Below are positions 2,518-26,934 of a stretch of 32,082 bases of DNA, one piece after another. This DNA is from a virus. Position numbers and translations under genes: made by a program. The notes beneath the pieces are model-generated. The model searched no databases. It was not told the origin of the DNA and saw nothing but the letters and a program-made list of their open reading frames with translations. The DNA lies in IMG/VR virus record IMGVR_UViG_3300031669_000151, positions 1-32,082 of that record. One strand, given 5' to 3'. Within the stretch, counting starts at the first letter, position 1. Every line of letters starts with the position of its first letter.

Positions 2518-2749
2518 GACGATTCCCGCCCTGCCGGTTCCTGTCCCACCGCCACTGACGTGGCGGCAACGACTCGGCCAGATCGTGGGTCTGAGTGAGC
2601 TGCTAGTGGTCGTCGGCCTGGCCCTCTGGGTCGTCGCCTTCTGGACGACGGCGCGGGAGGCGGCGCTCGGCGTCCCCGCGGCCATTCTCGTGTGGTACGG
2701 CCTGCCGCCTCGGCCGTGGTTCATCAGCGATCACGAGCGGAAAGGGTAA
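2510..2749 (+). CDS. Small membrane protein between terminase and portal
   Basis: A 79-aa protein with a proline-rich N-terminus (PALPVPVPPP) and two hydrophobic stretches, about residues 30-46 (ELLVVVGLALWVVAFW) and 52-63 (ALGVPAAILVWY), so probably a membrane protein. It starts at TTG 2510, eight bases inside the end of the large terminase gene. AAAGGAG at 2497-2503 sits at the right distance and decides this rare start. The position is where many phages have a small head gene, but I do not recognise the family and assign no function. The overlap and ribosome site support it being a real, coupled gene. Confidence 0.7.
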   Translation: MPKTIPALPVPVPPPLTWRQRLGQIVGLSELLVVVGLALWVVAFWTTAREAALGVPAAILVWYGLPPRPWFISDHERKG

Positions 2750-2754
2750 GGACG

Positions 2755-5346
2755 ATGGGATTTCTCGCACGTGTCCACGAACCGCGTTCGTCCGTCCTTG
2801 GGCCCCATAGCTTGCAAGACCCGGCGAGCGCGCGGCTGTACGGGCGCGCGCCGTCGGACGCCGGCGTGCATGTGGATGAGGTGATTGCCCTCACCTATTC
2901 CGCGGTGTGGGACGCCGTGCAGCAAATCTCGTCAGATGAGGCGAAACTCCCACTGTCGCTCATGAAACGGGAGCAAGGGGACATCAAAAAGCCGTACGTC
3001 GAGTCCAAACTCTACCGTCTCCTCCATGACGAGCCGAACCCAGAGATGTCCGCGTTCACCTTCCGTCGGACGATGACCGCGCACGCGCTCACGTGGGGCA
3101 ACGGCTACGCCGAGATCGAACGCGACCTAGCGGATCGCCCTAAGGCGCTGTGGGTGCTGACGCCGGATCGCGTCGCACCCTTCCGCGACAAGGTCTTCGA
3201 TAATGGTACTGGTCGCGTCCGGTTGGGACCCGTGCAGTACCGCATCGACGGGCGCGAGGACATGATTCTGCAGGCGCGTGACATCCTGCACCTCCAGGGC
3301 CCGGGGTTCGACGGGTCGATGGGCTACAACCTGGTGAACCACGCGCGTCAGGCAATAGGGCTGGCGCTCGCCTCGGGACGGTTCGCGTCGACGTTCTTCG
3401 CCAACGGGTCAACCTTCGGCGGTGTCCTGACGTATGCGGACGACCTCGACGACGATCAGAAGAAGGAAATCCGCGACGCAATCGAGGCGTTGCACCAGAG
3501 CGCCGATCGCGCCCATCGATTCCTGATTCTCAGTGGCGGGGCGACCTACGCCAAGACAGGTGTGAACCCGAACGACTCGCAAATGAAGGAGACGCGCGAA
3601 GCGGCCATCGAGGAGGTCGCACGCTTCTTCAATATGCCGCTACACAAGCTCAAGCTGAGCAAGCCCGGCTCGGTGAGCTATGCGTCGGTCGAGATGTTTG
3701 ATCTCGACTACTACAAGGGCTGTCTCCTGAATTGGATCACGAATTGGGAACAGGAACTGAATCGCAAGCTGATCTCGCCGCTCGAATACCGGCGGCAGTA
3801 CTTCAAGCACAGCGTCGAGGGGTTCTTGCGCGGCGACTTCAAGACACGGATGGAGGGGCTCGGCATGATGCACGATCGCGGCATCATCAACGCCGACCAA
3901 TGGCGGGCCCTCGAGGATTGGAACCCGATCGCCGATGGGTCCGGCCAGCTCTACCTGGTGCAGGGCGCCATGGTGCCGCGGAGTCGACTGAACGAGATCG
4001 TGGACAAACAGGTCAAGCCGACGCCCGATCCGCCCCCGCCGCCTGGCGACGTCGACGCGGATGTTGCGGCGGCGGAAGCGAAGGCCGCGCGCGCGGAGGC
4101 GCTCGCCGCCGAGCTACGCGCCGAGGCGCAGCGCGAACGCGATGCACGGGTCGCCCTCGAGGCAACGGGCCAGGCGACTACCGACGCGTTAGCTGCAGCG
4201 CTGGCGACGGAACGGGACGCTCATGCGCGGGCGTCGCACCTCGAGATCGTCGCCGCGGACCTGCGCGCCGAGCATGCGGCGCTGGTTGCCGCCCGCGACG
4301 CCCTCGCCGAACAGCTCGCCGAGCAGAGCACGGCTCGCACCGCGGCCGAACAGCGGGCGCAGCTCGCCGAGGAGGCTGCGGAGCGGGCCGATGCCGATCG
4401 TGTCCAGGCCCACGCCGAGGCCCGCGACGCGGTGGAATGTGAACAGCAGGCCCGGGAGGCGCTCGAGGCGGCGGCCCAAGAGCTCGTCGACGCGCAGGCT
4501 GCCGCGCAGGTCTCGGGCGAGCATCAGGCCGAGGCTGAGGTGGCGCGGCAGGCGGCCGAGGAACGGGCCGAGGCGGCGATTGCGGCGGCGAGCCAAGCGA
4601 CCGAGGAGCGTCAGGCGCTCGAAACGACCGCCGTGGCGGCGAGCGCCGCTGCTGACGCCGCGCGCGCCGACGCTGACCGGCTCGTGGCCGAGGCGCATGC
4701 CGCGACGGAGGCCGAACGGACCGCGCGCGCACAGGACGCCGAGGCCCGCGCGGCGGCCGAAGCGCGCGCGGCTGAAGCCACGGCCGCCCTGGTGGCCGCC
4801 GAGGCGAGGCGAGTGGCGGCGGAGACGGCGGCCGCCGAGGCCGGTGCCGCGGCCTCTCAGGCCGAGGGCGCCCTCACGGCGGCCGCGGCGGTCCTCCAGG
4901 CGCAGCGCGCGGCCGAACTGGCGCGGATGACGGGCATGCTCGGCGCCGTCCGTGGGCTGGTCGAAGACGCGGTCGGGCGGATGATCCGATGGGAGGCCGA
5001 CAAGGCCCGGCGGAACCAGACGACACCCGAGAAGCTGCGAAAGTGGCTGGAGGCCTTCTACGTCACGCACGAGGACACGGTCGCCGACGCCCTCCTGCGC
5101 CCCGTGCGGGTGCATCTCGCGTGGCAGCAGTCGGCGGACGACCCGGCCACCGTGGCGCGAGGGCTGGCCCGCGCGCATGTCGCGGAGTCGGTGCGGCAGG
5201 TGCGCGCGGTGGCCAACGGGGATCCAGAGGACCTGCACGTCACGCTCGAGCGGATGCTGCAGCGGTGGGAAGAGGATAGGCCGGCCGCACTCGCGGACCG
5301 GATTCTGCGCGAGGAGGTCGAGCATGTACGTCGGTACCAGGGCTGA
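2755..5346 (+). CDS. HK97-family portal protein with long coiled-coil extension
   Basis: Forms the dodecameric ring at the capsid vertex through which DNA passes. Residues 1 to about 420 match an HK97-type portal: an N-terminal SVLGPHSLQDPAS region, ETREAAIEEVARFFNMPLHK, and a C-terminal core with MMHDRGIINADQWRALEDW. A PDPPPPPGD linker at about residues 423-431 leads into roughly 290 residues (432-720) of Ala/Glu/Arg repeats, a predicted long coiled coil. Residues 723-863 form a separate helical domain (WLEAFYVTHEDTVADALL). Usual family members are 400-500 aa, so 863 aa is large. ATG 2755 was chosen because AAAGGG at 2741-2746 precedes it and MGFLARV is a natural opening; an upstream in-frame GTG at 2692 lacks a site. 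Confidence 0.92.
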   Translation: MGFLARVHEPRSSVLGPHSLQDPASARLYGRAPSDAGVHVDEVIALTYSAVWDAVQQISSDEAKLPLSLMKREQGDIKKPYVESKLYRLLHDEPNPEMSAFTFRRTMTAHALTWGNGYAEIERDLADRPKALWVLTPDRVAPFRDKVFDNGTGRVRLGPVQYRIDGREDMILQARDILHLQGPGFDGSMGYNLVNHARQAIGLALASGRFASTFFANGSTFGGVLTYADDLDDDQKKEIRDAIEALHQSADRAHRFLILSGGATYAKTGVNPNDSQMKETREAAIEEVARFFNMPLHKLKLSKPGSVSYASVEMFDLDYYKGCLLNWITNWEQELNRKLISPLEYRRQYFKHSVEGFLRGDFKTRMEGLGMMHDRGIINADQWRALEDWNPIADGSGQLYLVQGAMVPRSRLNEIVDKQVKPTPDPPPPPGDVDADVAAAEAKAARAEALAAELRAEAQRERDARVALEATGQATTDALAAALATERDAHARASHLEIVAADLRAEHAALVAARDALAEQLAEQSTARTAAEQRAQLAEEAAERADADRVQAHAEARDAVECEQQAREALEAAAQELVDAQAAAQVSGEHQAEAEVARQAAEERAEAAIAAASQATEERQALETTAVAASAAADAARADADRLVAEAHAATEAERTARAQDAEARAAAEARAAEATAALVAAEARRVAAETAAAEAGAAASQAEGALTAAAAVLQAQRAAELARMTGMLGAVRGLVEDAVGRMIRWEADKARRNQTTPEKLRKWLEAFYVTHEDTVADALLRPVRVHLAWQQSADDPATVARGLARAHVAESVRQVRAVANGDPEDLHVTLERMLQRWEEDRPAALADRILREEVEHVRRYQG

Positions 5347-6183: not shown

Positions 6184-6223
6184 CCGCGCCCGCCGCGTGC
6201 AGGTGACCCTGCGCGGCGCGCGG
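6184..6223 (+). promoter_or_regulatory. Strong bulged hairpin upstream of capsid gene
   Basis: Three stacked stems fold around a TGAC loop (6204-6207): GCAGG/CCTGC (6199-6203 with 6208-6212), GCCGC/GCGGC (6192-6196 with 6213-6217) and CCGCGC/GCGCGG (6184-6189 with 6218-6223), with two 2-nt bulges on the left arm. It lies in the 202-nt gap between the ribbon-helix-helix gene and the capsid start. There is no T-run, so it may be an RNA-stability, processing or operator element rather than a classical terminator. No convincing -35/-10 pair was seen in the gap. Confidence 0.5.
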
Positions 6224-6364
6224 TGACAACAAGGTGTGGCGGCGCACCCGGTGATCCAGGGCGCAACCCTCCGGCGAACTCGGAAACGAGCGAGATTTCG
6301 CCTGTGTGTTGCGCCCTGACGCATGTACGGGCCTTCCCCCAGGCGAGGACACGAGGGAAGGCCG

Positions 6365-8041
6365 ATGACTCTGAACCGATTCACTGTGACGCCGTTTCTG
6401 CTGGCGCTCGTCGCCGGCCTGGCGGCGATGCCCACCCATGTCTACCGGATCTGCGCCTGGAACGTCGGCACGCTGAAGATCGATCCGTGGCGCCGGCGGA
6501 CCTCGGGGACCCTACGCGCGGTCACGCGAACCGTCCTCAGCTGGTTCGCCAGCCTCTGGAGCCCGCGCCTGGCGTTCGTGGCGTCCGCCGTTCTGCTGGC
6601 GCTGCTGCTCGACCATCTGAGCGGCCCCCATGACGGTCTCCTTCTGGCGGCGATTCCCGGCTTGGCCGGCATGTCGCTGCCGGACCTGCGGCAGCGCAAG
6701 GGCGAACTCGCCCAGCAAGCGGACCAGTGCCTGACCGACGCGGCCTCGCGGGAGTGGACCTCGGAGGACGAGACCAAATTCACCGCGCTCCACGCCGACA
6801 TCGAGGACATCAACAAGCACATCGCGCGCCGCGAAAAACAGGAGGCGGTGAGAACCAGCCTGGAGGACGGCCAGGGCCGGCGGACCGACCCGGCGCAGCC
6901 GACTCAGACCCAGCGGACCGAGACCTCACAGGGCCGTGGCGTCACGCGCGCCTCAGCGGCCGACCACGCCATGGCCCTCGTCGGCTGGTTCCTGGCCGGG
7001 TCGAACCGCCGCAGCGACGCGCACGTCGCCGCGGCGAAGCGCTGCGGCATCGACATCGACGGTAAATCGCTCTACCTGGGCCTCGCGGCGCGGCCGCCGG
7101 CCAGTACGCGTCAGGGCGATCTCGAGGACTGGGAGAAGCGGTACCTCGGCGTGGCCATCGAAAGCCCGGACAATGGCGGGCACTATCTCGTGCCGGACGA
7201 GACAATGCGCGGGCTCGAAGTGGCGCTCCTGGCCTTCGGCGGCATGCGCAGTGTCGGCACGGTCCTCCGGACCGACACGGGCGCCAATCTCCCGATCCCG
7301 ACGATGAACGACACGGCGAACGAGGGGGCGATCATCGCGGAGCAGATCCAGGAGACGACCGACCTCGAACCGACGATCGGCCAGCTCGTACTCGAAGCGT
7401 TCACGTACAGCTCGAAGAAGATCCCGGTGTCCGTCGAGTTTATGCAGGACAACGCGATCAACTTCGCCGCCCGGGTGGGCGAGCTGCTCGGTACCCGTAT
7501 CGCGCGGATCACGAACCGGCACTTCACGGTCGGCACCGGGAACGGCCAGCCGAAGGGTGTCGTGACGGCCGCGACCGATTCGGGCGTGACGGGCGCCAGC
7601 GCGACGTCGATCAGCTACGACAACATCGTGGACCTGACGCACTCGGTGGATCCGGACTACCGGAACAACGGGGCGCGATTCATGTTCCACGACAACATGC
7701 TGAAGGCGCTGAAGAAGATCAAGATCCCGCAGTACTCCGGCGACACCGCCGGTCAGCCCCTGTGGCGTCCGGGTCTCGCGGCCGGTGTGCCGGACACGAT
7801 CGACAGCTACCCGTACTCGATCAACCAGCACATGCCGCTGCCGACCTCGGGCCTGAAGGCGATGATCTTCGGCGCGCTGAGCAAGTACCAGATCCGCGAC
7901 GTGCGGCTCGTGGAGGTGATGCGGCTGAACGAGCTGCGCGCCGAGTACCGGCAGGTGGTCTGGCTGGCCTGGTCGCGGCACGACGGCGACCTGCTCGACG
8001 CCGGCACGCACCCGGTCAAGTACCTCACGATGGGCACGTAG
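6365..8041 (+). CDS. Major capsid protein, HK97 fold, with hydrophobic N-terminal extension
   Basis: Main shell protein. From residue 103 (MSLPDLRQRKGELAQQA) to about 162 is a helical delta/scaffold domain typical of HK97-type precursors. The rest is the shell domain, with GGHYLVPDETMRGLE, TYSSKKIPVSVEFMQDN, GTGNGQPKGVV and a C-terminal DVRLVEVMRLNELRAEYRQ. The oddity is upstream. ATG 6365 has GAGGGAAG at 6353-6360, the best ribosome site, and adds about 102 residues with hydrophobic stretches at 11-22, 66-83 and 90-102. The conventional start, ATG 6671, has no visible site. An earlier ATG at 6323 also lacks one. The protease probably removes the extension with the delta domain. Confidence 0.93.
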   Translation: MTLNRFTVTPFLLALVAGLAAMPTHVYRICAWNVGTLKIDPWRRRTSGTLRAVTRTVLSWFASLWSPRLAFVASAVLLALLLDHLSGPHDGLLLAAIPGLAGMSLPDLRQRKGELAQQADQCLTDAASREWTSEDETKFTALHADIEDINKHIARREKQEAVRTSLEDGQGRRTDPAQPTQTQRTETSQGRGVTRASAADHAMALVGWFLAGSNRRSDAHVAAAKRCGIDIDGKSLYLGLAARPPASTRQGDLEDWEKRYLGVAIESPDNGGHYLVPDETMRGLEVALLAFGGMRSVGTVLRTDTGANLPIPTMNDTANEGAIIAEQIQETTDLEPTIGQLVLEAFTYSSKKIPVSVEFMQDNAINFAARVGELLGTRIARITNRHFTVGTGNGQPKGVVTAATDSGVTGASATSISYDNIVDLTHSVDPDYRNNGARFMFHDNMLKALKKIKIPQYSGDTAGQPLWRPGLAAGVPDTIDSYPYSINQHMPLPTSGLKAMIFGALSKYQIRDVRLVEVMRLNELRAEYRQVVWLAWSRHDGDLLDAGTHPVKYLTMGT

Positions 8042-8055
8042 GCGGAGCATCGCTG

Positions 8056-8913
8056 ATGAGGCTGCAATTCATGACGTCGATCTCGGACGGTTATGTCGAG
8101 GGCCGCGTGATCGACGTCGCCCGTCCCACGCCGCAGCACCTGGACTGGCTGCGGCGCGGGATTCTCAAAGCGCTCCCCGACCGCGAGGCGGAGACCGCCC
8201 TGGCGCCGGCGGCGGTCGAACAGGCGATCGCCCGCCGCACGGGCCGCGGGCGGCGGTCCCCGCGGCGGTCCCCGCGGCGGGCTGCGCGACCGGCGGCCGA
8301 CGCCTCCGACGAGGGCGACCCGGTGGTGCCGGTGCTCTGTCCGGGCGGGACCGTCGTCTGTCTGGGCGGCGGACCCAGCCTGACCCGCGAGGACGTGGAG
8401 GCCTGCCGCGGCAAGGCCACGGTCCTCGCGATCAACGACGCGTACCGGCTGGCCCCGTGGGCCGACGTGCTGTACGGGGCCGACAGCAAGTGGTGGGGAT
8501 GGCACAAAGGCGTGTCGTCCTTCGCGGGCCTGAAGTTCTCGCTGCAACCGGACGCCGGGCAGTGGCCGGGCGTGCAGGTCCTACGAAACACCGGCGAGGG
8601 GGGGCTCGAGCTCGACCCCTCCGGTCTGCGGACGGGCCGAAACTCCGGCTACCAGGCCATCAACCTGGCCGTGCACTTGGGAGCCACGCGCGTGCTGCTG
8701 CTCGGGTACGACATGGGCCCCGGCCCGAAGGGCGAAACGCACTGGTTCGGGGACCATCCGGACCGGAACGTGTCCCCGTATACGACCTTCCTCGCGCGGT
8801 TCGAGGCCATCGTCGAACCCCTCCGCCAGCTCGGCGTCGAGGTTATCAACTGCTCGCGCCGAACAGCCCTGACAGTCTTCCCCTGCCAGCCGCTCGAGGA
8901 GGCGCTGCCGTGA
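8056..8913 (+). CDS. DUF115/MptE-like protein fused to a short head-type domain
   Basis: A 285-aa two-part protein. Residues 1-45 (MRLQFMTSISDGYVEGRVID...) resemble the small protein often found right after phage capsid genes. Residues 60-85 are a basic linker with SPRRSPRR encoded by a 12-nt tandem repeat. Residues 98-275 resemble the DUF115/MptE-like family: VVCLGGGPSLTRED at 100-113, AINDAYRLAPWADVLYGAD at 125-143, NSGYQAINLAVHLGA at 196-210 and LLLGYDM at 214-220. Relatives occur in flagellin-glycosylation loci and phages, and their exact reaction is often unknown. GGAG at 8044-8047 supports ATG 8056. It opens the six-gene modification cassette. Confidence 0.75.
   Translation: MRLQFMTSISDGYVEGRVIDVARPTPQHLDWLRRGILKALPDREAETALAPAAVEQAIARRTGRGRRSPRRSPRRAARPAADASDEGDPVVPVLCPGGTVVCLGGGPSLTREDVEACRGKATVLAINDAYRLAPWADVLYGADSKWWGWHKGVSSFAGLKFSLQPDAGQWPGVQVLRNTGEGGLELDPSGLRTGRNSGYQAINLAVHLGATRVLLLGYDMGPGPKGETHWFGDHPDRNVSPYTTFLARFEAIVEPLRQLGVEVINCSRRTALTVFPCQPLEEALP
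8251..8280 (+). repeat. 12-nt tandem repeat in DUF115 gene linker
   Basis: Two and a half copies of CGGCGGTCCCCG, encoding SPRR repeats, mark the junction between the head-type N-terminal part and the DUF115-like part of the protein. Length change by whole units would keep the reading frame. Confidence 0.85.
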
Positions 8914-9500
8914 TCGAGTCCGTGGCCGCCTTCTACGCGCGCGAGCTCCAACATCCCGAGCGCGCCACGACCGCGCATCTGCCGCGGCTGCGGGCGCTCG
9001 CCGAGGGGCTGGAGCTGGCCGTCGAATTCGGCGTCAAGCGCGGGGCGTCATCCTCGGCATTGCTGCTCGGCGCGCACGAGGTCGTCAGCTACGACGTCGT
9101 CGAGACCGCCGACGCGCGGCTGCTCGAACGGCTGGCCGGCGAGCGGTGGACGTACTGCCTAGCCGACTCCCGCACAGCCGACGTGCCCCCCTGCGATCTC
9201 CTGTTCGTCGACTCGCTGCACACCTACGACCAGGTCGCGGCGGAACTTACGGCCCACGCCGGCAAGGTGCGGCGCTGGCTCGTCTTCCACGACACGATCA
9301 CGTTCGGGTCGATTGGCGCGAAGGGCGAAAGCGGTCAGCACCTCTGGACCTACGCGGCGGGGCAGTCGGTGCCGCGCGGGGCGCTCGGGATTCGGCCGGC
9401 GATCGACGAGCTGATGATCCGCGATCCCTCCTGGCGGCTGCGCGCGCACTACACCGACAGCCACGGGCTGTTGGTCCTGGAGCGTCATGCGATCCGTTGA
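8910..9500 (+). CDS. Class I SAM-dependent methyltransferase (first of two)
   Basis: Probable S-adenosylmethionine-dependent methyltransferase of the Methyltransf_24 type, 196 aa. It shows the glycine-rich loop AVEFGVKRGASSSALL (37-52), the acidic end of strand 2 (YDVVE, 61-65), DLLFVDSLHTYDQV (96-109) and LVFHDTITFG (124-133). The DSxHTY and HDT motifs occur in small-molecule and sugar methyltransferases and in cephalosporin-hydroxylase-like proteins. GTG 8910 overlaps the preceding stop (GTGA) and follows GAGGAGG at 8896-8902, so this start is preferred over the long open frame upstream. The target is unknown; the neighbours suggest a glycan. Confidence 0.78.
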   Translation: MIESVAAFYARELQHPERATTAHLPRLRALAEGLELAVEFGVKRGASSSALLLGAHEVVSYDVVETADARLLERLAGERWTYCLADSRTADVPPCDLLFVDSLHTYDQVAAELTAHAGKVRRWLVFHDTITFGSIGAKGESGQHLWTYAAGQSVPRGALGIRPAIDELMIRDPSWRLRAHYTDSHGLLVLERHAIR

Positions 9501-10059
9501 TGACGTCGTCGCCCACGCCTCGACGGTGCCGGGCTACATGCACGCGCACGAGCTCCGCTGGCTCTGCGATCAGGCACGCCGCCTGACCGTGCCGGCCGCG
9601 TGGTGCGAGATCGGGTGCTGGCAGGGGCGCTCGGCTACGGCCGTGGCGGGGGGCTTACCGCCCGGGCCGGGCACGCGGCTGGTGCTGGTCGATAACTTCT
9701 CTGGCCCGACGACCCGGGAGATGCCGGATCCCGCCGCGTGCCGGCGCACGATTGAGGCGGCGATGGCCTCAATGCGCGTGTTTGCGCCGGGCGTGGACAT
9801 CGCGCTGGCCATCGGCGACAGCGCGGCCCTGGCGACCACCTATCCCGACGGGACGTTCGACGTGGTGTTCATTGATGGCGATCACCAGTACGCGAAGGTG
9901 GTCGCCGACATCACGGGGTGGGCGCCGAAACTGAAACCCGGGGGGCTGCTCTGTGGGCACGATTTCACGAATCCCTGCGGGGTCGAGCAGGCCGTCCGTG
10001 ACCTAGTGCCGGGGTTTGCCCTGGTCCCGACGTCTTCCCTCTGGCACGCGCGAGTCTAG
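9487..10059 (+). CDS. Class I SAM-dependent methyltransferase (second)
   Basis: A 190-aa methyltransferase. Motif I is WCEIGCWQGRSATAVA (39-54), motif II has LVLVDNFSG (65-73), the motif IV region is FDVVFIDGDHQYAKVVAD (124-141), and KLKPGGLLCGHDF (148-160) follows. This is the Methyltransf_24 pattern common in polysaccharide clusters. ATG 9487 lies 14 nt inside the previous gene, so the two are coupled. It shares the fold of its neighbour but has clearly different motifs, so they may act on different positions or substrates. Acceptor unknown. Confidence 0.82.
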   Translation: MRSVDDVVAHASTVPGYMHAHELRWLCDQARRLTVPAAWCEIGCWQGRSATAVAGGLPPGPGTRLVLVDNFSGPTTREMPDPAACRRTIEAAMASMRVFAPGVDIALAIGDSAALATTYPDGTFDVVFIDGDHQYAKVVADITGWAPKLKPGGLLCGHDFTNPCGVEQAVRDLVPGFALVPTSSLWHARV

Positions 10060-10062
10060 GGC

Positions 10063-10755
10063 ATGGCGACCTTCAATCCTCGTCCCGACCGCTTCGACGC
10101 CTACCTGCAGGCGCTGCAGACACGGGTGCCGTTCGCGCTGTCGCGCTGGGGCGATGGGGAGTGGCAGTGCCTCCTCGGGCACCAGGGCGCTAACTGCGAC
10201 GGCCAGCCCTACACGCTGGCGCTGCGGCGCGACCTGATCGCGGTGCTCCGCGACCGGCCGCGCTACGACCTCGGTCTGCAGGGATTCGCCCTCCAGCGGT
10301 TGGGCGACGCGATCGCCGCCTGGCTCGACAGGGAGGGCATGGACGTCTCGTGGGTGGACGCGGACAGCTTGGCGCGGCGGTCGCGCGATGGCCGGTTGGC
10401 CCCGTTCGTCTACGCGCTCGCCGCGCGCGACGTCGTGCTCGTCGGGCCGGCGTATCTGCGCATGCTCGCGCTCTTTCCAGTGGTCGCGCACGTCGAGGTG
10501 CCGGCGCGGGCGGTGCATGAGGACGTCCTCGAGCGGCTCGTGCGTGAGACGGCGGCCGCGATCGCCGCGTGGCCCGAGGCGGTCGTCGCGATCAGCGCGG
10601 GGATGAGTGCCAACGTGGTGGTGCACCGCCTCCACGCCTCGTCGCCCGCCGCGACGCTGCTCGACTGCGGCTCCCTGTGGGAGCCCTATGTCGGACGGGT
10701 CACGCGGACCTATCACCGCGCCGTCATGGCGGCGCGCGCACAGGCGCCGGCATGA
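10063..10755 (+). CDS. GT-D fold glycosyltransferase (DUF1792-like)
   Basis: Probable glycosyltransferase, 230 aa. PFALSRWGDGEWQCLLG at 23-39 matches the signature of the GT-D fold (family first described as DUF1792), where the D-x-E pair (Asp31, Glu33) binds metal and nucleotide sugar. Later segments DVVLVGPAYLRML and AVVAISAGMSANVVVHRL fit the second nucleotide-binding half, followed by a CGSLWEPY segment. GT-D enzymes are known from serine-rich adhesin glycosylation in streptococci and occur in phage clusters. It begins three bases after the preceding stop and ends overlapping the next start (ATGA). Confidence 0.75.
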   Translation: MATFNPRPDRFDAYLQALQTRVPFALSRWGDGEWQCLLGHQGANCDGQPYTLALRRDLIAVLRDRPRYDLGLQGFALQRLGDAIAAWLDREGMDVSWVDADSLARRSRDGRLAPFVYALAARDVVLVGPAYLRMLALFPVVAHVEVPARAVHEDVLERLVRETAAAIAAWPEAVVAISAGMSANVVVHRLHASSPAATLLDCGSLWEPYVGRVTRTYHRAVMAARAQAPA

Positions 10756-11405
10756 CGATTACCGCCTTCACCTGCGTCATCGGCCCGACACGGGATCGCC
10801 TCCGCACGCCGACGGTCCGCAATCCGGCCGTGCGCTATGTCTGCTTCACCGATCGCGCGCCCGCGCCGGAACCCTACGAGCACGTGCTCGTCGAGGTGCC
10901 GCCCAACGGCGCCCGGAGCGCCGAACTCTTCTCGCGCCAGCTCAAGATCTTGGCCGACCATCCCGCGCTCGGCACGCCCGATGTCCTCTTGTGGCATGAC
11001 GCCGCCTTCGAGTTGCAGTGCGATCCCGTGGCTGTGGCGCGTCAGCATCTCCAGTCGTTCGACCTGCTCGCGTTTCGGCATCCCCACCGCACCCGCATCG
11101 AGGACGAAGGCACCGCCATTGCCGCGCTGGGCTACGCCGCGCCGGAGGTGCTGGCGCAGCAAGCGGCCAGCTATCGCGCCGAGGGCTTCACGGAGGCGTC
11201 CGTGATCACCTCCACCGGCTTCAGCCTGCGCCGCCTCACACCGGCCGTGCGGGCGTTCAGCCGTCTCTGGTGGGACGAGGTGCGGCGCTGGACGTGGCGC
11301 GACCAAATGAGCGTCGACTACGCGCTGTGGAAGACGGGCCTGCGCGTGGGCTACGTGCCCGGGCACTATCGCGACAACCCCTTCGCCCGGTGGTATCCGT
11401 CATGA
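10752..11405 (+). CDS. DUF616-family glycosyltransferase-like protein
   Basis: A 217-aa protein with the pattern of DUF616 (TOD1/MUCI70-like glycosyltransferases): VRYVCFTDRA at 27-36, SRQLKILADHPALG with VLLWHDAAFEL (79-89, Asp83 as probable metal/donor ligand), FRHPHRTRIEDEGTAI at 108-123, and WRDQMSVDYALWKTGL at 182-197. These elements occur in order and at normal spacing. The acceptor is unknown. ATG 10752 overlaps the previous stop (ATGA); the longer open frame starting at 10569 is embedded in the previous gene and was not used. Coupled downstream by ATGA at 11402. Confidence 0.8.
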   Translation: MTITAFTCVIGPTRDRLRTPTVRNPAVRYVCFTDRAPAPEPYEHVLVEVPPNGARSAELFSRQLKILADHPALGTPDVLLWHDAAFELQCDPVAVARQHLQSFDLLAFRHPHRTRIEDEGTAIAALGYAAPEVLAQQAASYRAEGFTEASVITSTGFSLRRLTPAVRAFSRLWWDEVRRWTWRDQMSVDYALWKTGLRVGYVPGHYRDNPFARWYPS

Positions 11406-12112
11406 CGGTCTCGGTGATCACCCCCACGGCGGATCGGCCGGTGGCCGTCGCGCTCGCCGAGCGGTGGATGGCGCGGCAGACGCGCCCGCCGGACGAGTGG
11501 ATTGTGGCCGATGGCGGTCTGGTGCCGGTCGCGTGTTCGCAGGGGCAGGTCCATCTCCATGCGGCCGCCCCCGCCGGCGCGCAGAACTTTCTCGCGAACC
11601 TCCTCCGCGGCCTGGATCGCGCGCGCGGCGACCTCATTGTGTGGTGGGAGGACGACGACTGGTATGCGCCGACCCATCTGGACACGGTGTGCCGCCAGTT
11701 CACGCCCGGCGTGCAGGCCGCCGGCGACGACCTGCAGCAGTACTACCACGTCGCGCGGAGACTGTTCCGGACGTTCCACAACCGGGGCGCGTCGCTCTGT
11801 CAAACCGCGTTCACGCGCGAGGCCGCGCCGATCTTCCGCGCGAGCGTCGACCGGTGCCGACGCCTGAACACGTACGGCGTCGACGGGGGCTTCTGGGCGG
11901 CTGTCCCCGCCCACGCGCAAGCCCTTCGGCGCACCCAGACGGTCATCGGCATCAAGGGCCTGCCGGGTCAAGCTGGCCTCGGCATCGGGCATCGGCCAGC
12001 CCCAACCCAGTGGTCCGCTGACCCCGACCTCGTGCAGCTGCGCGCCTGGATCGGGGATGACGCCGATGTCTACGCCGCGCTCTGGCGGGCGGACGAACGA
12101 GGAGCGGCCTGA
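11402..12112 (+). CDS. GT2-like glycosyltransferase (GT-A fold)
   Basis: A 236-aa protein opening with SVITPTADRP (4-13) and RQTRPPDEWIVADGG (25-39), a classical GT-A beginning. DLIVWWEDDDWYAPTHL at 77-93 holds the D-x-D metal site. A later region LNTYGVDGGFWAAVP could carry the acceptor base. It is short, so a stand-alone catalytic domain. ATG 11402 overlaps the DUF616 stop (ATGA) and its own stop overlaps the connector gene's ATG by one base. It closes the cassette and ties its expression to the head-tail genes. Confidence 0.8.
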   Translation: MTVSVITPTADRPVAVALAERWMARQTRPPDEWIVADGGLVPVACSQGQVHLHAAAPAGAQNFLANLLRGLDRARGDLIVWWEDDDWYAPTHLDTVCRQFTPGVQAAGDDLQQYYHVARRLFRTFHNRGASLCQTAFTREAAPIFRASVDRCRRLNTYGVDGGFWAAVPAHAQALRRTQTVIGIKGLPGQAGLGIGHRPAPTQWSADPDLVQLRAWIGDDADVYAALWRADERGAA

Positions 12113-12759
12113 TGGCGATCATGCGCGACGTCCCGTGGCACTTCGAGCTGCTCGCGCCGCCCACGCAGGAACCGGTGACCGTGGCGGTGGTGCGGGACGA
12201 CCACCTGAAGTCCCCCAATGGGTCGCTCGAGGACGCGTACATCGCGCGGCTGATTCTCGTGGCACGACGGATGGCCGAGCGGACGACGCGCCGGGCCCTG
12301 ATGCCGCAGGCGGGATCCGTCGTGCTCGACCGGTTCCCGAGCGGCGAGATCGTGCTCCCGTGGCCGCCGCTCCAGCGCGTGGAATCGATCACTTACGTGG
12401 ACACCGCCGGCGTCGAGCAGACGCTCGCGGCCGAGGCCTACCAGGTGAGCGCGCCGCAGGGACCGACGGCGCCGCGCGGCCGGATCTGGCCGGCCTACGG
12501 CACGACCTGGCCGTCCACGCGGTCGCAGATGGACGCCGTGGTGGTGAGCTTCGATATGGGCTACCCCCTGACCGACCCGGGTAGCCCGCCGTCGAGTCCG
12601 CCGGAGGAGCCGCAGCCGACCACGCCTGACGACATCGTCCACGGCATGCTGCTGGTGATCGGCGAGCTCTACAAGCAGCGGAGCGAGTCGGTGCATACGA
12701 CCCAGACCCCCGCGGTGATCCGCGCCCGGGACCTCTGGATGAGCTACCGGGTGTACTGA
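12112..12759 (+). CDS. Head-tail connector (HK97 gp6 / phiE125 gp8-like)
   Basis: Probable adaptor ring under the portal. The 215-aa protein has an N-terminal helical part SLEDAYIARLILVARRMAER (residues 38-57), a mid beta section with LPWPPLQRVESITYVD and SVVLDRFPSGEIVLP, and a C-terminal helix PDDIVHGMLLVIGELYKQR, the order seen in gp6-like connectors. A proline-rich stretch (PSSPPEEPQPTTP) is inserted before the last helix. GAGGAG at 12099-12104 supports ATG 12112. It resumes the structural operon after the cassette. Confidence 0.85.
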   Translation: MAIMRDVPWHFELLAPPTQEPVTVAVVRDDHLKSPNGSLEDAYIARLILVARRMAERTTRRALMPQAGSVVLDRFPSGEIVLPWPPLQRVESITYVDTAGVEQTLAAEAYQVSAPQGPTAPRGRIWPAYGTTWPSTRSQMDAVVVSFDMGYPLTDPGSPPSSPPEEPQPTTPDDIVHGMLLVIGELYKQRSESVHTTQTPAVIRARDLWMSYRVY

Positions 12760-12761
12760 CC

Positions 12762-13145
12762 ATGGCGCAACGCGACCTAGCACTCGGCGGGGCCATCCCG
12801 ATGGACCCCGGCGCGCGGGATCGGTCGGTGACGATTCAGCAGCTCGCGGAGTCAGTGGGCGGGTCGAACTATCCGGTGGGCACCTGGTCGACGCTGACGA
12901 CGGCGTGGATGCGCAAGCGGGATCTGAAGGGCTGGGAGCGGTTCAAGGCCGCGCAAGTGTCGGCGCCGGCCGAGACGCTCTGGGAGATGGGCTACCGCCC
13001 GGACATGGACCCGGACCTCGTGGACGTGCCCAAGACGCGGCGGCTGGTCTATGAGGGTCGGATCTACGACATCACGGCCGCCTCGCAGATCGGGCGACGC
13101 GAAGGGGTCGAGCTCATGACCTTGGGCAGCACGAAAGTGGCGTGA
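12762..13145 (+). CDS. Head closure / head-tail adaptor protein
   Basis: A 127-aa protein with the short beta-barrel pattern of the phage head-tail joining family (HK97 gp7, SPP1 gp16): MDPGARDRSVTIQQL near the start, VGTWSTLTTAWMRKRDLKG, and a C-terminal LVYEGRIYDITAASQIGRR followed by VELMTLG. Such proteins close the neck after packaging and receive the tail. It starts two bases after the connector's stop and fits its order in the operon. Confidence 0.87.
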   Translation: MAQRDLALGGAIPMDPGARDRSVTIQQLAESVGGSNYPVGTWSTLTTAWMRKRDLKGWERFKAAQVSAPAETLWEMGYRPDMDPDLVDVPKTRRLVYEGRIYDITAASQIGRREGVELMTLGSTKVA

Positions 13146-13148
13146 CCG

Positions 13149-13601
13149 ATGAAGTTCTCGATGACGGTCCTGAACGGGAACGAGCTCGCGCGGCGCCTTG
13201 AGGCGCTCCCGGAGGCGCTGACCAAGGCGATCCTCCTCGAGGCCTTGACGGCGGCCGCTGAACCGATTCGCAGCACGGCGGCGACGCTGGCCCCGCGCGG
13301 CCCGGGGCCCGGCCCGCATCTGGCCGACCACATCGGGATCAGCCGCGGGAAGACGGGACACAGCGTGGCGATCGGCCCCACCCATGCGAAGAAGGACAGC
13401 GAGACCGAGGATTACGCGGTGCGTGGGCTCATGCAGGAATTCGGGACCGTGCGTCACGGCGCCCAATCGTTCCTGCGGCCGGCCTTCGATGCGCACGGGC
13501 AGACAGCGCTCTCGATCCTGCAGCAGCGCTTGTGGACGGCCCTTCGCAAAGCGGCGGGGAAGACCACCGACCCCGGCACGATCGGTCAGGGGCGGCTGTA
13601 G
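13149..13601 (+). CDS. HK97 gp10-like neck/tail protein
   Basis: A 150-aa protein with the HK97 gp10 pattern: a helical N-terminal half (LARRLEALPEALTKAILLEA), then IRSTAATLAPRGPGPGPHLADHI, a beta section with KTGHSVAIGP, and GTVRHGAQSFLRPAFDAHG near residues 99-117. It functions at the head-tail interface in long-tailed phages. Three bases separate it from the head-closure gene, and it abuts the tail terminator gene. Confidence 0.87.
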   Translation: MKFSMTVLNGNELARRLEALPEALTKAILLEALTAAAEPIRSTAATLAPRGPGPGPHLADHIGISRGKTGHSVAIGPTHAKKDSETEDYAVRGLMQEFGTVRHGAQSFLRPAFDAHGQTALSILQQRLWTALRKAAGKTTDPGTIGQGRL

Positions 13602-14042
13602 ATGACGGTGGAGGAAGCGATCTGCGAGCGAATCGAGCAGCTCGGCGCCGTGACGGCGCTGGTGGGCACGCGTGTCTATCTCGACAAGCTGCCGCAGGCG
13701 CCGACCTATCCCGCCGTGCGGGTGCAACTCGTGGACGATCTGTCGTCGCAACACCTCCGTGGGCCGAACGGGCTCGCTCGGGGGCGCGTCCAGGTCGATG
13801 CCTTCGCGCACGAAGAGAGCGGCGTCGATCCATACGCGCAAGTCGCGCGCCTGGCCGCCGCGATTCATGGGGACGGTCTCGGACCCTCGGCGAGCGGCCT
13901 CGAGGGGTGGATCGGGACGCTGGGGAGTCCGGCGGTTGAGATCGTGGAGTGCGCTCGGGTGTTGCGCTTGCGACGGTACGACCCCGACGAACTCCAGGTG
14001 CTGACGATGTCTCAGGACTACATCGTGGGGTACCGCGCGTAG
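13602..14042 (+). CDS. Tail terminator / tail completion protein (DUF3168)
   Basis: A 146-aa protein of the DUF3168 type that caps the tail tube and joins it to the head. It shows EEAICERIEQLGAVTALVGTR at the start, YPAVRVQLVDD, GLARGRVQVDAFAHEE and the helix YAQVARLAAAIHG, all in the usual order. ATG 13602 directly follows the gp10-like stop codon. Position between gp10-like and tail tube genes is the standard one. Confidence 0.87.
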   Translation: MTVEEAICERIEQLGAVTALVGTRVYLDKLPQAPTYPAVRVQLVDDLSSQHLRGPNGLARGRVQVDAFAHEESGVDPYAQVARLAAAIHGDGLGPSASGLEGWIGTLGSPAVEIVECARVLRLRRYDPDELQVLTMSQDYIVGYRA

Positions 14043-14067
14043 AACCAACAACGAAGGAGCAGAGGCC

Positions 14068-14565
14068 ATGCCAAACGTCACAGACACCTACTATCCGTCC
14101 GAAGGCTTCAGCGGGTACGGATCCCAGCTGATGGTCGGGGATGGGGCGAGCCCCGAGGTCTTCGAGGCCGTCGCGTTCATCGAGATGATCACGCCGGGCG
14201 ACATGAGCACGGATGTGATCGAACGGACGCACCTGCGCAGCCCGGAGGCCCACAAGGAGAAGCTGGCGGGCCTGCGGGACAGCGGGCCGTTCACGATCGA
14301 GGGCATCTGGGCACCGGGGCACCAGTCCCAGTCCAACACCGGCGGTGGCACGGGCGCCTTCGCCGGGGGCGGCCTGATCAAGATGTGGCGGGATCGGCTG
14401 GCCCGGAACTGCAAGATCGTGCTCGCGGACGGGTCGCCGGCCACGGAATGGCCGTTCCGCGGATTCGTCTCGAAGTTCCAGCCGGGTGCGATCGGGGGCG
14501 GCGACAAGGTGAAATTCACCGCCGAGATCACACCGGTGGCCGACTTCTCGGCCGACCTGCCGTAG
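14068..14565 (+). CDS. Major tail (tail tube) protein
   Basis: Forms the hexameric rings of the tail tube. The 165-aa protein begins YPSEGFSGYGSQLMVGDG and contains EVFEAVAFIEMITPGDMS, VIERTHLRSPEAHKEKLAGL, and ITPVADFSADL at the end, as in single-domain siphophage tube proteins. AAGGAG at 14054-14059 is among the strongest ribosome sites in the window, fitting a highly expressed structural gene. A perfect palindrome follows the gene. Only one tube gene and no sheath gene are present, so the tail is non-contractile. Confidence 0.9.
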   Translation: MPNVTDTYYPSEGFSGYGSQLMVGDGASPEVFEAVAFIEMITPGDMSTDVIERTHLRSPEAHKEKLAGLRDSGPFTIEGIWAPGHQSQSNTGGGTGAFAGGGLIKMWRDRLARNCKIVLADGSPATEWPFRGFVSKFQPGAIGGGDKVKFTAEITPVADFSADLP

Positions 14566-14590
14566 GCGAGCCGCGCGGGCGCGGGGTGGT

Positions 14591-14618
14591 CACGCTCCGG
14601 CACCGGTGCCGGAGCGTG
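14591..14618 (+). terminator. Perfect 28-bp palindrome after tail tube gene
   Basis: CACGCTCCGGCACC (14591-14604) is followed directly by its exact reverse complement (14605-14618), giving an 11-bp stem with a 6-nt loop or a 12-bp stem with a tetraloop. No T-run follows. It may be a partial terminator, a 3' stabilising hairpin for the abundant tail-tube message, or a dyad for a DNA-binding protein. Confidence 0.6.
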
Positions 14619-14648
14619 TCGCAGGACGATGAGGGACACAGGTGAGGT

Positions 14649-15083
14649 ATGGCGAATCGAGCCAAAGGGGAAGTGTCGCTGGAGATCGACGGCCAGGCGT
14701 ACACGCTGATCATGACGACCGACGCGATGGCGCAGCTCGAGGCCCTCTTCAGCACGCCGGCACGCGAGGTGACGTTCCAGCAGATTCTCGATCGCGTCAA
14801 CGCCGGCAGCGTGCGGCACATTCGCGGCTTCGTGTGGGCCGCCCTGCAACGGCATCATCCGGCCTTGACCGTCACCGCCGCCGGCGAGCTGATCGATGCG
14901 GCGGGGGGCCTGGAGGGGTTCGGCGCGCAGTTGCTGGCGCTGGCCGGGACGACGACGCCGGCGCCTGAGGATCTCCAGGCCCTCGGCGTGGCGCCCGAGG
15001 CCCGCCCTCATCCGGCTCAGGGGACGAAGCGTCAGCGTGGGACTGGCGGGCGCTCTACCGCCACGCCCGCCGCGTCAGCCTGA
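14649..15083 (+). CDS. Tail assembly chaperone, short form (gpG-like)
   Basis: Binds the tape measure during tail assembly. The 144-aa product has the pattern of gene-transfer-agent-type chaperones: EVSLEIDGQAYTLIMTTDAM, AQLEALFS, and a helical middle (HIRGFVWAALQRHHP). Its last ~20 residues (TKRQRGTGGRSTATP...) are low-complexity basic sequence with no resemblance to a domain, as expected for readthrough beyond a frameshift site. GAGG at 14644-14647 supports ATG 14649. It is followed in the -1 frame by a conserved-looking second domain. Confidence 0.82.
   Translation: MANRAKGEVSLEIDGQAYTLIMTTDAMAQLEALFSTPAREVTFQQILDRVNAGSVRHIRGFVWAALQRHHPALTVTAAGELIDAAGGLEGFGAQLLALAGTTTPAPEDLQALGVAPEARPHPAQGTKRQRGTGGRSTATPAASA
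15020..15023 (+). other. Probable -1 slippery site
   Basis: Frame-0 codons CAG GGG ACG contain a G4 run. The GGG codon can re-pair perfectly one base upstream, after which GAC GAA GCG continues in the -1 frame. The site lies where the chaperone's short-form sequence stops looking like protein and the -1 frame starts to. Confidence 0.55.
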
Positions 15084-18300: not shown

Positions 18301-19511
18301 GCGGCGCGGGCTGGAAGGCGGCCGGCTTCGGGGCGGGCACGGGCGCTGCCTCAGGGGCAGCGATCGGCTCGATCGTGCCGGGTCTGGGCACCGCGATCGG
18401 CGCGATCGTCGGCGGGCTCGCCGGCGCCATCAGCGGGATCTTCGGGAAGTCCCAGGGCATGAAGACCAACGATCTGCGGGACCAATTCCTGGCCCAGTTC
18501 GGCGGGGCGGGCACGGGCGCGGGCTCCGGGTTCGGCACCCTGGCGGCCGAGTTAGCTCAGCTGTCCACCGCCAGCGGCGGCGGGGAAGGCGGCGGCACGC
18601 TGTTCAAGGATCTGATCAGTGCGAAGACGGTGGACGACCTGAAGGCGGCCGTGGACCGCGTGACGGCGGCCCTAGGAAGCGCGGAATACGCGGGCCTCAA
18701 GGTCAGGGATGCGTTCGACACACTGCAGCAGGAACAGACGCGCCTCGTGGACGGTGGCGAGGCCCAGGAAGCGGTTGTGGCCAGCCAAGCCGTGGCCTAC
18801 AGCCAGCTGCTGGCGACCATCCAGGCCACGGGCGCGGAAGCCCCGGCGGCGATGCAGCCGATCCTGGAACAGCTGCTGGACATGGGCCTGCTGGTGGACG
18901 CGAACGGCGAAAAGATCACGACCCTGGCCGACGTTCACTTCCAGGAAGTGGCGACGGCGGGCCAGGAAGCCCTGGACCAGGTGGACCAAGCCCTGGAACT
19001 GAACGCGGACAGCTGGCAGACCTGGCGCGAACGCGGCGGGGTCTACGGGAAGGAACTGTCGGCGGACATGATCGCGGTGGGCGACGCGGCGCAGCGGTCG
19101 GCTGGCAATATCCTCAAGGCTTTCGACGTCACCGTCCCACCGATCGAGGTGCCCTATATCTACCAGCAGCACGGCGGCGGCATTCCTAATCTGCCGAACT
19201 CCTCACCGCCGCCCGGATTCGCCACGGGCACGCATGGACAGTATCCGGATTTCGGATCGGGGATGTTGGTGGAGCTGCACGGCCGGGAGCGCATCACGCC
19301 ACTGGGTGAGCGCGAGAGCGACCGAGGGGGTGGGCAGGCCCCGGTCGCCCTCACCGTGACGAACTACTTCGATGTCACGGGCGTCCTCGATGAGGGCGCG
19401 TTGGTGCAGACGACGCAGCGGAAGATCGTACCGATCATCACGCGCACGATCGAAGACGGCGTGGACGGGCTTCGGACCAAGTGGCGCGAAGGACTCGGCG
19501 TGAGCGGGTGA
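15378..19511 (+). CDS. Tail tape measure protein
   Basis: Sets tail length and is ejected ahead of the DNA. The 1377-aa protein begins like TP901-type tape measures (LRVLLSANTAEFQAGMKA) with the core at about 55-300 (FDKGTDTIRAATGA, TGIGVTALMDRVVQFG, GFSLEESIALLGKW). Hydrophobic segments lie at about 350-415 (AKTMIVGLGLLAAATGPVL). Helical stretches follow, and a very glycine/alanine-rich section spans about 895-1030. The C-terminal part is soluble-looking. At about 0.15 nm per residue the length predicts a tail near 200 nm. AGGAG at 15363-15367 precedes the ATG. It is the largest gene in the window. Confidence 0.93.
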   Translation: MANSALVGLLRVLLSANTAEFQAGMKASAASAKAFSRDLATTGRQASQVGLALTKTLTLPILAAGAALIKVGVDFDKGTDTIRAATGATGKALDGLRASFKVVFASVPASIQDTATAIGDLNTRTGATGPVLEGLATQLLNLSRITKTEVAANVAGATRLFGDWSVASIDQAAALDQVFRASQSTGIGVTALMDRVVQFGAPLRQMGFSLEESIALLGKWEKEGVNSEAILGALKIGVANFAKAGIDGKAGLEQFVQQVTALGPGAEATSLAVKTFGSRAGPDMASAVLEGRFAISDYLTVIEGGTDTINGAAADTLSLGEKFTLLKNKLMSAVEPLGTALVDALESASDAAQPIIGAIALLAKGFTALPGPAKTMIVGLGLLAAATGPVLFIFGKLALMGSTLVGAFTKAGLASKLLGTDLATTGMKATATGSALGKLGAAASIASAAFVGWQIGRLIADWTGSDVAIGNLLNRMRGIKPGAQEAAAAQDTITLALQRMTAAERAANEGTLTYAKAVVFLTEWDRARIEGLKATADEQHRTTSATDDLTAALAEQSAKIREADTEIAQLSATARTKLAEAIRSGAFSMKDLSAATGLSELALKRFEDRLEAGTKALDKQQQAAEKAQAAQKALRDELDTYVLTQASLDAKLEHLSVLLNLAAKESTPALREALRTLSPQFRELETRALAAGLQVDRVRQVFEEFDVQAGLLQSRNLGAIFTSVLAPTAQVDAATQGLLRTVREQITAQNDLNAAYDYFGLKTPEALQRAAEAARQHYAALVEGGLATKTELTAAYDQMIAAQLKATGQLPSIWKTEVLPGITSVIGTIQTAVSGSFAQMLLGAKGFKDGWLDIWQSIKAGVLNILNSLLSWFMNSFLKGLLGALRGQQSAFAQAFGGLFAGAGGGGGGLPGLGSVFGGGGAAAGGLPGTAVGLPGGLGGGGTAAGGGAAAGVAGGAAAAGAGIALGLLGKQLFGGAGWKAAGFGAGTGAASGAAIGSIVPGLGTAIGAIVGGLAGAISGIFGKSQGMKTNDLRDQFLAQFGGAGTGAGSGFGTLAAELAQLSTASGGGEGGGTLFKDLISAKTVDDLKAAVDRVTAALGSAEYAGLKVRDAFDTLQQEQTRLVDGGEAQEAVVASQAVAYSQLLATIQATGAEAPAAMQPILEQLLDMGLLVDANGEKITTLADVHFQEVATAGQEALDQVDQALELNADSWQTWRERGGVYGKELSADMIAVGDAAQRSAGNILKAFDVTVPPIEVPYIYQQHGGGIPNLPNSSPPPGFATGTHGQYPDFGSGMLVELHGRERITPLGERESDRGGGQAPVALTVTNYFDVTGVLDEGALVQTTQRKIVPIITRTIEDGVDGLRTKWREGLGVSG

Positions 19512-23700: not shown

Positions 23701-24400
23701 CGACCTCTACTTCAACCGGAAGTTCCAGGTCGCCGCGTCGATGGAGCCGATCTACCAGACCACGGGCGAGGCTGCCGTGGACGACGTCACGAACATCGTC
23801 GATCGGTCCTTCAAGATCGTGGACGAGGTCACCGGCAGCTTCTACAACATTCTCCCGTTCGCGCATTCCCGCGACGTCGTGGGGCGGTTCGCCGACGGCT
23901 GGAACGTGATCGATGAGACGCGCAGCGACGTGTCGATCGCGATGTACGAGCAGGAGCGCGTCGCGCCCCGGACCGAGCTGCAGATCCTCCGCGGCGAGAC
24001 GGCCCAAGGGGCCGCGACGATCGCGGACGTCATGGCGCGCAAGCGCGGGCGCTTCCAAGATCCGCGCCGCCGCGTCACGCTGGCCCTGCCCTTCTCGGGC
24101 CTGGCCTACGAGCCGGGCGACGTGCTGCCCGTCACGCACCTCGAGGGCATCGGCGCCGAGGGCTGGACGGACCATGACGTCCGCGTGGTCCGCCATGAGG
24201 TCGACCTGGACGCCGGCCAAGTCCGCCTGGACTGCTACGACCTCGAGAGCCTCTGGGATCTGACCGGTCTCTGGGCGCCGGAGGACTGCCCGGATCGCGA
24301 CAGCGCCACGGAGGAACAGAAGCACCTGTATCTCTTCTGGGCGCCCGAGGCGCCGGACAACTTCTACTCGGACGGCCCCGCCGTCAAGAGCTGGTCGTAA
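20771..24400 (+). CDS. Tail hub/tip protein with lectin-like N-terminal domain
   Basis: A 1209-aa mosaic protein. Residues about 60-215 look like a LamG/concanavalin-type domain (HLYGALRVFFQVPTGGLP, TWYEAIVTFDTFDKSSG, HFFYANWVFAAD). About 395-600 and 840-1170 form the hub-like core: EGTMTPFAEVDLNDRASYY, RGSDWLKKKFS, VTNIVDRSFKIVDEVTGSF, PRRRVTLALPFSGLAYEPGD and DVRVVRHEVDLDAGQVRLD. A fibronectin-III-like stretch sits near 635-700 (FNGAPGADSYRVYLYDG). Its place after the small tail proteins and before the adhesin fits a tail-tip base. The lectin-like domain suggests contact with host sugars; that part is inference. Confidence 0.72.
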   Translation: MASDRNLCGFNAGDNSGLSAASGLGSVLFISAAAKHLGAYGLELLKTVASASGYAQLPIATITSASGSHLYGALRVFFQVPTGGLPSAADHLVCGFCSIANMQHAATMELDTAGHFRARAATIVSAYSAAALAVDTWYEAIVTFDTFDKSSGVDTMDVTVSVYDMAGALVEAVTANNTIIGFGPYTIQPPTLGSNNAVSATAHFFYANWVFAADTAAPPTLPAGKIIYPCRISGQGASDGWTPAGGWERIDEIPFNPSGGASEEITSASVVDTTYTHEALGGMAVATVYAWKVYANVKGSGAQAVLLDGVEYPHTPIAAYSVGPGTGVALDWTERTAATFNAIAFGYRNKTSAALGMGGLTSEILGDPPAWHYVGGGALAIGGSSVARFTEEADFGAADGRTSVPVAWVELTDREGTMTPFAEVDLNDRASYYGGYKRPWVLSWLPVSRGLSDRAGQMEHASFGALLSDVTRFFRALLAGPKTRYLTNRPLVERIIDDEARRAERVPRVLAVGYTADYGPRSDLKFEVRGSDWLKKKFSRKAQAGQAWQPLITLEDFPHAADEYLTDTTAKRAVGAVGLPVPIILGTLSDYALEARQVPDPDVSTPGNPGDPGHTTVLPYNATLGQVPAAQANRITDGLSSFAAGERVNFIVTAIYAGVEGASPILFGINVGPEAGCTAKVNFNGAPGADSYRVYLYDGWGYDPHGDAYDSTRIRMQEHDNSTMDGDYGLDHGVVWRSWDDGEMYPNVTGGTAPTPPVVLYKTIYVDVGKGLYRPRYVGDYEIGGVVYRGALVAGHACAYLESAYVNGVAVDLESNPDWLTPRNAAAWAAAGFATDYTDVNGRRYTLIYLKGAAGDLFAGVTQPDEGQVAIAMNVWGAETVGDGSGAAIETPAEQALWLLNNFLAPDTPYQSGAYLTAEDTTYPHVANLPLVDAASFAAVDVAAVERCPGGYVSAVAIQDVITALDLLAWFAVGGDFDLYFNRKFQVAASMEPIYQTTGEAAVDDVTNIVDRSFKIVDEVTGSFYNILPFAHSRDVVGRFADGWNVIDETRSDVSIAMYEQERVAPRTELQILRGETAQGAATIADVMARKRGRFQDPRRRVTLALPFSGLAYEPGDVLPVTHLEGIGAEGWTDHDVRVVRHEVDLDAGQVRLDCYDLESLWDLTGLWAPEDCPDRDSATEEQKHLYLFWAPEAPDNFYSDGPAVKSWS

Positions 24401-24892: not shown

Positions 24893-24905
24893 GGGAGACC
24901 TGACG

Positions 24906-26585: not shown

Positions 26586-26670
26586 AGAACCGCTGACCCT
26601 CTGTGTGTCTGAACCTCTTGGGGTGCGTGATGGGCGTACGACATAAGCGACGAGACGAAAGGATACGGAA

Positions 26671-26910: not shown

Positions 26911-26912
26911 CC

Positions 26913-26929
26913 GGGGGGGGGGCGGGGGG
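26913..26929 (+). repeat. Poly-G tract (G10-C-G6)
   Basis: Ten G residues (26913-26922), one C, then six G (26924-26929), lying just after a stop codon and 5-22 nt before a small ORF start. It could act as an exaggerated ribosome site, be prone to slippage, or hide a sequencing length error. Confidence 0.85.
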
Positions 26930-26934
26930 TGGTC

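Follow-up and report, generated by a model that had tools for sequence, protein, structure and literature searches.

The window analysed here, all 32,082 bases of IMG/VR record IMGVR_UViG_3300031669_000151 from an uncultivated virus of bacteria, carries six consecutive plus-strand genes between the major capsid protein (MCP) gene and the head-tail adaptor gene; these encode a DUF115 protein, two Methyltransf_24 methyltransferases, and GT-D, DUF616 and GT2-like glycosyltransferases (GTs). We consider it probable that they constitute a transferable virion-glycosylation cassette with methyl decoration, which is read together with the rest of the head operon; the virion would be the acceptor, and the methyl groups would cap the glycan. 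A six-gene glycan/methyl-transfer cassette between capsid and connector genes had been proposed for positions 8056-12112 in the original prediction, and our analysis confirms its presence there.

Layout and expression of the cassette

The left part of the window is, by family matches, an HK97-type packaging, head and tail module (terminase subunits, portal, protease, capsid, adaptor, head closure, neck, tail terminator, tail tube, a chaperone-like gene and tape measure). The cassette and its borders are as follows.

6671..8041, plus strand: MCP, left border of the cassette (Pfam Phage_capsid, E 4e-57; phrog_10)
8056-8913, plus strand: gene 1 as a whole, a small head protein part followed by a DUF115 part
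8056..8322, plus strand: N-terminal part of gene 1, small head protein (encoded by a gene of its own, with an overlap, in 8/8 relatives of the same arrangement)
8323..8913, plus strand: catalytic part of gene 1, predicted DUF115/Maf-like/GT42-like glycosyltransferase (phrog_4603, E 5e-45; AlphaFold domain)
8910..9500, plus strand: gene 2, Methyltransf_24 S-adenosylmethionine (SAM) methyltransferase with a GTG start (E 1.7e-7, above the Pfam cut-off)
9487..10059, plus strand: gene 3, Methyltransf_24 SAM methyltransferase (E 8.9e-18, above the Pfam cut-off)
10063..10755, plus strand: gene 4, predicted GT-D fold glycosyltransferase, DUF1792-like (AlphaFold predicted local distance difference test (pLDDT) score 95; 4phr, Z 18.3; 5v4a, Z 17.4)
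10752..11405, plus strand: gene 5, TOD1_MUCI70 (formerly DUF616) glycosyltransferase (E 8.8e-12, above the Pfam cut-off)
11402..12112, plus strand: gene 6, GT2-like glycosyltransferase (Glycos_transf_2, E 1e-4, 22.7 bits against a cut-off of 23.3)
12112..12759, plus strand: head-tail adaptor, right border of the cassette (phrog_442, E 1e-20)

Gene 1 starts 14 bases after the MCP stop, the junctions within the six genes measure -4, -14, +3, -4 and -4 bases, and gene 6 meets the adaptor gene at -1 (position 12112), so that the overlaps and few-base gaps described in the original prediction hold throughout. A codon-usage gene caller, run independently, returned all six genes; their GC content at third codon positions (GC3) is high, like that of the head genes. 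A search of 6200-14700 for promoter-like sites and plus-strand terminator-like sites found none. From the tight junctions, the agreement of the gene caller, the GC3 match and the lack of such sites, the six genes are very likely read together with the head genes. The earlier proposal that the enzymes are expressed with the head genes is thus well supported, and expression of the cassette would be late. None of the six genes had a match in the defence-system library.

Alignment with relatives sets the MCP start at 6671 rather than at 6323. The capsid open reading frame is open upstream of this start, and positions 6323-6670, when read, would encode a hydrophobic, possibly membrane-spanning segment; at the corresponding place, a separate small membrane-like gene is present in L025 and similar relatives (L-numbers here and below are labels of the contigs or loci of relatives).

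Predicted enzymes and their proposed action

The fold and family assignments given to the six genes in the original prediction are borne out by Pfam and phrog matches and by AlphaFold models of genes 1 and 4, except that gene 1, described there as a plain DUF115-like protein, is instead a small head gene fused to a DUF115 domain. Residues 1 to ~80 of gene 1 correspond to a small protein found after the capsid gene in related phages, and residues 1-71 are 47% identical to a separate gene of L006. The eight relatives that share this arrangement all have a small gene whose stop falls within the beginning of the DUF115 gene, in a different frame; only in the window do the two share one frame. Since the linker of gene 1 holds a 12-base tandem repeat (CGGTCCCCGCGG twice), a real fusion and the product of an assembly indel are both possible.

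The catalytic part of gene 1 belongs with phrog_4603, which is labelled alpha-2,3-sialyltransferase, and lies under the Pfam cut-off for MptE-like/DUF115 (PF01973; 21.3 bits against 34.6, E 3e-4). A PDB sequence search gave no useful match for either gene 1 or gene 4. The AlphaFold model of gene 1, built from 32 homologues and with a domain pLDDT of ~97, has as its nearest fold the Maf flagellin glycosyltransferase 5mu5 (Z 15.6 over 183 residues), followed by the sialyltransferases Cst-I and Cst-II (Z 11-12; Cst-I 2p2v, Z 12.0), and the best Foldseek match is CstII (E 4e-4). As modelled, gene 1 has the DUF115/GT42 fold. Maf serves the protein O-glycosylation of flagellin, and DUF1792 enzymes serve that of streptococcal adhesins.

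By sequence, gene 4 belongs to no significant family (GT-D-like, E 0.12); as a single query it retrieved no viral relatives, and a two-sequence profile retrieved 46. Its model matches the GT-D enzymes 4phr, 4pfx and 5v4a with Z scores of 17-18, far ahead of other matches, and residues D31-G32-E33, an acidic DXE motif, are invariant across 32 relatives; the predicted structure clearly has the GT-D (DUF1792) fold. The L037 homologue of gene 6 clears the Glycos_transf_2 cut-off that gene 6 itself narrowly misses.

Copies of gene 2 in L037, L073, L194 and L195 are 60-73% identical to it. The family of gene 3, phrog_2675, bears the label DNA methyltransferase, and many phage GTs glycosylate DNA; both would fit a role of the cassette in modifying phage DNA (glycosylated or hypermodified bases) or another non-virion molecule. 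We regard such a role as extremely unlikely, however, because the gene 3 match is to the Methyltransf_24 domain and its best PDB sequence match (E 4.6e-6) is 6g7d, a mycobacterial sugar O-methyltransferase; moreover, the head-tail part of the window showed no recognisable base-hypermodification gene, and coupling of such a function to the head operon would be unexpected.

For virion glycosylation, we infer an order of action, donor sugars, an acceptor protein and a benefit as follows. The product of gene 1, a soluble Maf/GT42-type enzyme, would add the first sugar to serine or threonine residues of a newly made head-associated protein in the cytoplasm during late expression; those of genes 4, 5 and 6 would lengthen the glycan with different sugars, and those of genes 2 and 3 would O-methylate the sugars. 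The finished particle would then bear a short, lineage-specific, methylated glycan, which might shield the particle or tune its adsorption.

Spread of the cassette among relatives

A four-sequence DUF115 profile matched 375 IMG/VR stretches, which were thus chosen by sequence and not by location; the best 80 of the 375 were analysed by gene calling and iterative hidden Markov model labelling, and the 79 loci judged formed 62 clusters at 90% identity. The run of genes with DUF115 was bounded by a head or neck gene in 61 of these 62 non-redundant clusters, and on both sides in 37. Such runs comprise one to nine genes in the clusters (up to 10 in the full set) and occupy two main slots, one between capsid/portal and adaptor and the other between adaptor and head closure. 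In bacterial genome assemblies, whose titles include Kiloniellaceae, Thiobacillus and Omnitrophota, DUF115 lies beside head or neck genes in 15 of 18 loci. A Pfam scan of 90 other cassette genes recognised GT2, GT1-like, GT8, GT9 and GT92 families, numerous methyltransferases (FkbM among them), radical SAM/B12 enzymes and a single sugar epimerase/dehydratase. Two DUF115 genes are present in the head regions of L098, L093, L061 and L170, and L098 carries eleven cassette genes between capsid and adaptor.

Among relatives sampled through the capsid (some near-duplicates counted), 13 are filled, with DUF115 at the place it has in the window, and eight are empty, with MCP, one to three small genes and adaptor in succession and without DUF115, in agreement with the earlier statement that only short genes are usual at this site. 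The adaptor as sole query retrieved only four relatives.

The same gene order, which the original prediction had suggested looking for in related phages, is complete in L037: all six genes are present in identical order (59, 60, 63, 51, 53 and 57% identity for genes 1 to 6), in a slot between its own adaptor and head-closure genes, and the portal of this phage is no more than 26% identical. Genes 2-6 recur in order in L194, and L195 has genes 2, 4, 5 and 6, interspersed with two further sugar genes; in both, a terminase gene lies upstream and a putative lambda-type portal gene downstream. Genes 4-5-6 adjoin head closure in L193, and L073 has genes 1, 2, 5 and 6 with another methyltransferase in the position of gene 3. 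Judged by gene order and neighbours in L037, L194 and L195, one block occupies different slots in different types of head operon, and the set is transferable. Transfer to several slots, always in head regions, is the pattern expected of products that have to work together with head proteins. Cassettes are also gained and lost, and their content varies greatly among relatives; on the portal tree of a second phage group, the presence of DUF115 needs 6 changes, at least 3 of which are forced by well-supported branches.

This variability, with its gain and loss, might suggest a decaying or selfish moron cassette that is parked at a site of strong transcription and has no role in the particle. The distant DUF115 match in P1 falls at pmgO/pmgP, which are non-essential in the laboratory (PMC10695390), and this has likewise been counted in favour of a moron, although dispensability is also as expected for surface decoration. 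We consider a moron highly unlikely, given that all six genes have intact frames, conserved motifs and high GC3, that the six-gene order is kept at 51-63% protein identity, and that the location stays in the head region instead of in just any late operon.

Several further features of the window lie outside the cassette. The portal (2692-5346) has a long alanine-rich extension, probably a coiled coil, beyond approximately residue 440, and aligns with the L006 portal almost to the end. The tail protein at 24906-26582 combines the second domain of Mtd with an FGE-sulfatase (C-type-lectin-like) domain and resembles targets of diversity-generating retroelements; no template repeat of such an element was found in 24900-32082. 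Two ARAGORN tRNA calls (18319-18392 and 23732-23828) fall within long structural open reading frames and are probably false positives.

Possible acceptors, alternatives and known systems

Many relatives (L007, L008 and most loci of the second type) encode a collagen-like protein with Gly-X-Y repeats after the portal, with or without a glycan cassette; that of L008 (2989-4065) has a CBM5/12 domain. The gene is located one or two genes upstream of DUF115 in many relatives, and among portal-sampled phages it is present in 18 of 18 with DUF115 and in 17 of 32 without. A literature search for a link between phage collagen and GTs returned no relevant result. As a linked glycan acceptor, the collagen-like protein was rejected, because the portal tree gives only 3-6 independent pairs and the sign test is not significant; in other phages this head protein is attractive as an acceptor, but with an association that fails correction for relatedness it serves as a lead only. 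We tentatively speculate that there is a large class of block-exchangeable virion-glycosylation islands, in which a Maf/GT42-type (possibly nonulosonic-acid) starter acts directly on head-associated proteins, often beside collagen-like head proteins, and that the starter of the window, fused to a small head protein, may dock on the capsid; this wider proposal is doubtful.

Several results weigh against virion glycosylation. The MptE-type HPPK structure scores Z 11.2 against the gene 1 model, close to the sialyltransferases, and the fold alone therefore does not prove glycosyl transfer. Unlike many relatives, the window and its nearest relatives have no collagen-like gene, and no Ser/Thr-rich structural protein stands out in the window as an acceptor. 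In 50,697 phage records, tblastn gave no match for genes 2, 4 and 6, and no phage of the Corndog/Che8 type was among the matches listed for genes 3 and 5; by these results, the mycobacteriophage precedents described below are not shown to be homologous to the window genes. Finally, positions 31239-31287 on the minus strand hold the 3' part of an Arg-like tRNA with the anticodon loop TCT (Rfam tRNA, E 0.049; similar fragments occur on plasmids). Lying near the right end, this fragment hints at the attachment site of a temperate phage, which leaves room for lysogenic conversion.

The main rival explanation is accordingly host-surface modification, in which, during infection or lysogeny, the enzymes would change lipopolysaccharide (LPS), capsule or teichoic acid and bring about superinfection exclusion. 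Besides the tRNA fragment, it draws on the classical phage GTs that change host serotype and on the GT9-type families in the cassettes, GT9 being known from LPS synthesis. We nevertheless judge it unlikely. The head-operon location is kept across phage types and slots. The window genes include neither a GtrA flippase nor the membrane-anchored or polytopic transferase families of Gtr-type serotype-conversion cassettes, and among the families listed for the 90 cassette genes there was no flippase or other membrane family, including GtrA-type flippases, polyprenyl-phosphate GTs and polytopic acyltransferases. The hydrophobic peak of gene 4, the sole one among the window genes, sits in a confidently folded soluble domain. 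The cassettes examined all adjoin structural genes, and none of the loci examined places the genes in an early surface-conversion locus, the arrangement that the original prediction had named as contrary to it; the neighbours are head, neck or, in CcrColossus, tail genes.

Virion glycosylation, which we prefer, builds on a known principle, namely that phage-encoded GTs in the head operon decorate the capsid; in the literature consulted, phage-encoded enzymes have been shown to glycosylate the capsid in only a few mycobacteriophages. As far as our searches go, what is new is a set of enzymes headed by a Maf-like transferase and its spread in uncultivated phages, together with the movement of the set as a block from one slot or head type to another and a leading enzyme that is fused to the small head protein. 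Equipment of a similar kind, with a different enzyme set, appears here as a transferable island within head operons, both in many uncultivated phages and in the cultured phages D3, Psp6 and phi17:1, where it is open to test. If this is true, then tailed phages would commonly present a methylated glycan coat as a surface that changes fast, and this would bear on adsorption, on the stability of the particle and on recognition by the immune system.

Compared with Maf 5mu5 and the GT42 enzymes Cst-I and Cst-II, gene 1 shares the predicted fold and a GGGPSL-type motif at the first strand, but identity is ~15% and its enzyme part is a single domain of ~200 residues. Gene 4 likewise shares its modelled fold and the invariant DGE motif with the GT-D/DUF1792 enzymes 4phr and 5v4a, but is only 15-16% identical to them and misses the Pfam GT-D-like cut-off. 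Among cultured phages, the Pseudomonas phages D3 and Psp6 carry DUF115 directly after MCP and a small gene, before the connector, and PAJU2, also a Pseudomonas phage, carries it between head closure and neck; in all three, a methyltransferase gene is also present in the head region. They thus resemble the window in having DUF115 in the head operon with an unknown gene and a methyltransferase, but their DUF115 proteins are ~33-37% identical, GT-D and DUF616 are not annotated there, and the D3 genes are split over two slots. In Tetraselmis virus S20, a long run ahead of head closure includes two DUF115 genes along with GTs and a methyltransferase; in CcrColossus, DUF115, GT and methyltransferase genes are flanked by tail genes on one side and lysis genes on the other. 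In the Cellulophaga phage phi17:1, adjacent Methyltransf_24 and DUF616 GT genes (gp41-gp42) lie in the head operon ahead of protease and MCP, as a pair resembling that of the window; DUF115 is not annotated there, and phi17:1, unlike the window, has a collagen-repeat protein (gp52), located between head closure and neck.

In the mycobacteriophage Corndog, the interval from portal to protease holds genes for an O-methyltransferase and three GTs, whose products were detected in infected cells, not in virions, and were proposed as capsid modifiers (PMC4351075). PMC12363180, citing Freeman 2023, reports Corndog gp38 and Che8 gp110 as GTs required for capsid glycosylation. The slot of Corndog gp35-gp38 (O-methyltransferase, two GTs and an N-acetylglucosamine (GlcNAc)-transferase) differs from that of the window, and no DUF115 gene is named there, but the likeness is in the arrangement itself: as in phages of the Corndog/Che8 type, phage GT genes and a methyltransferase gene lie within the structural operon.

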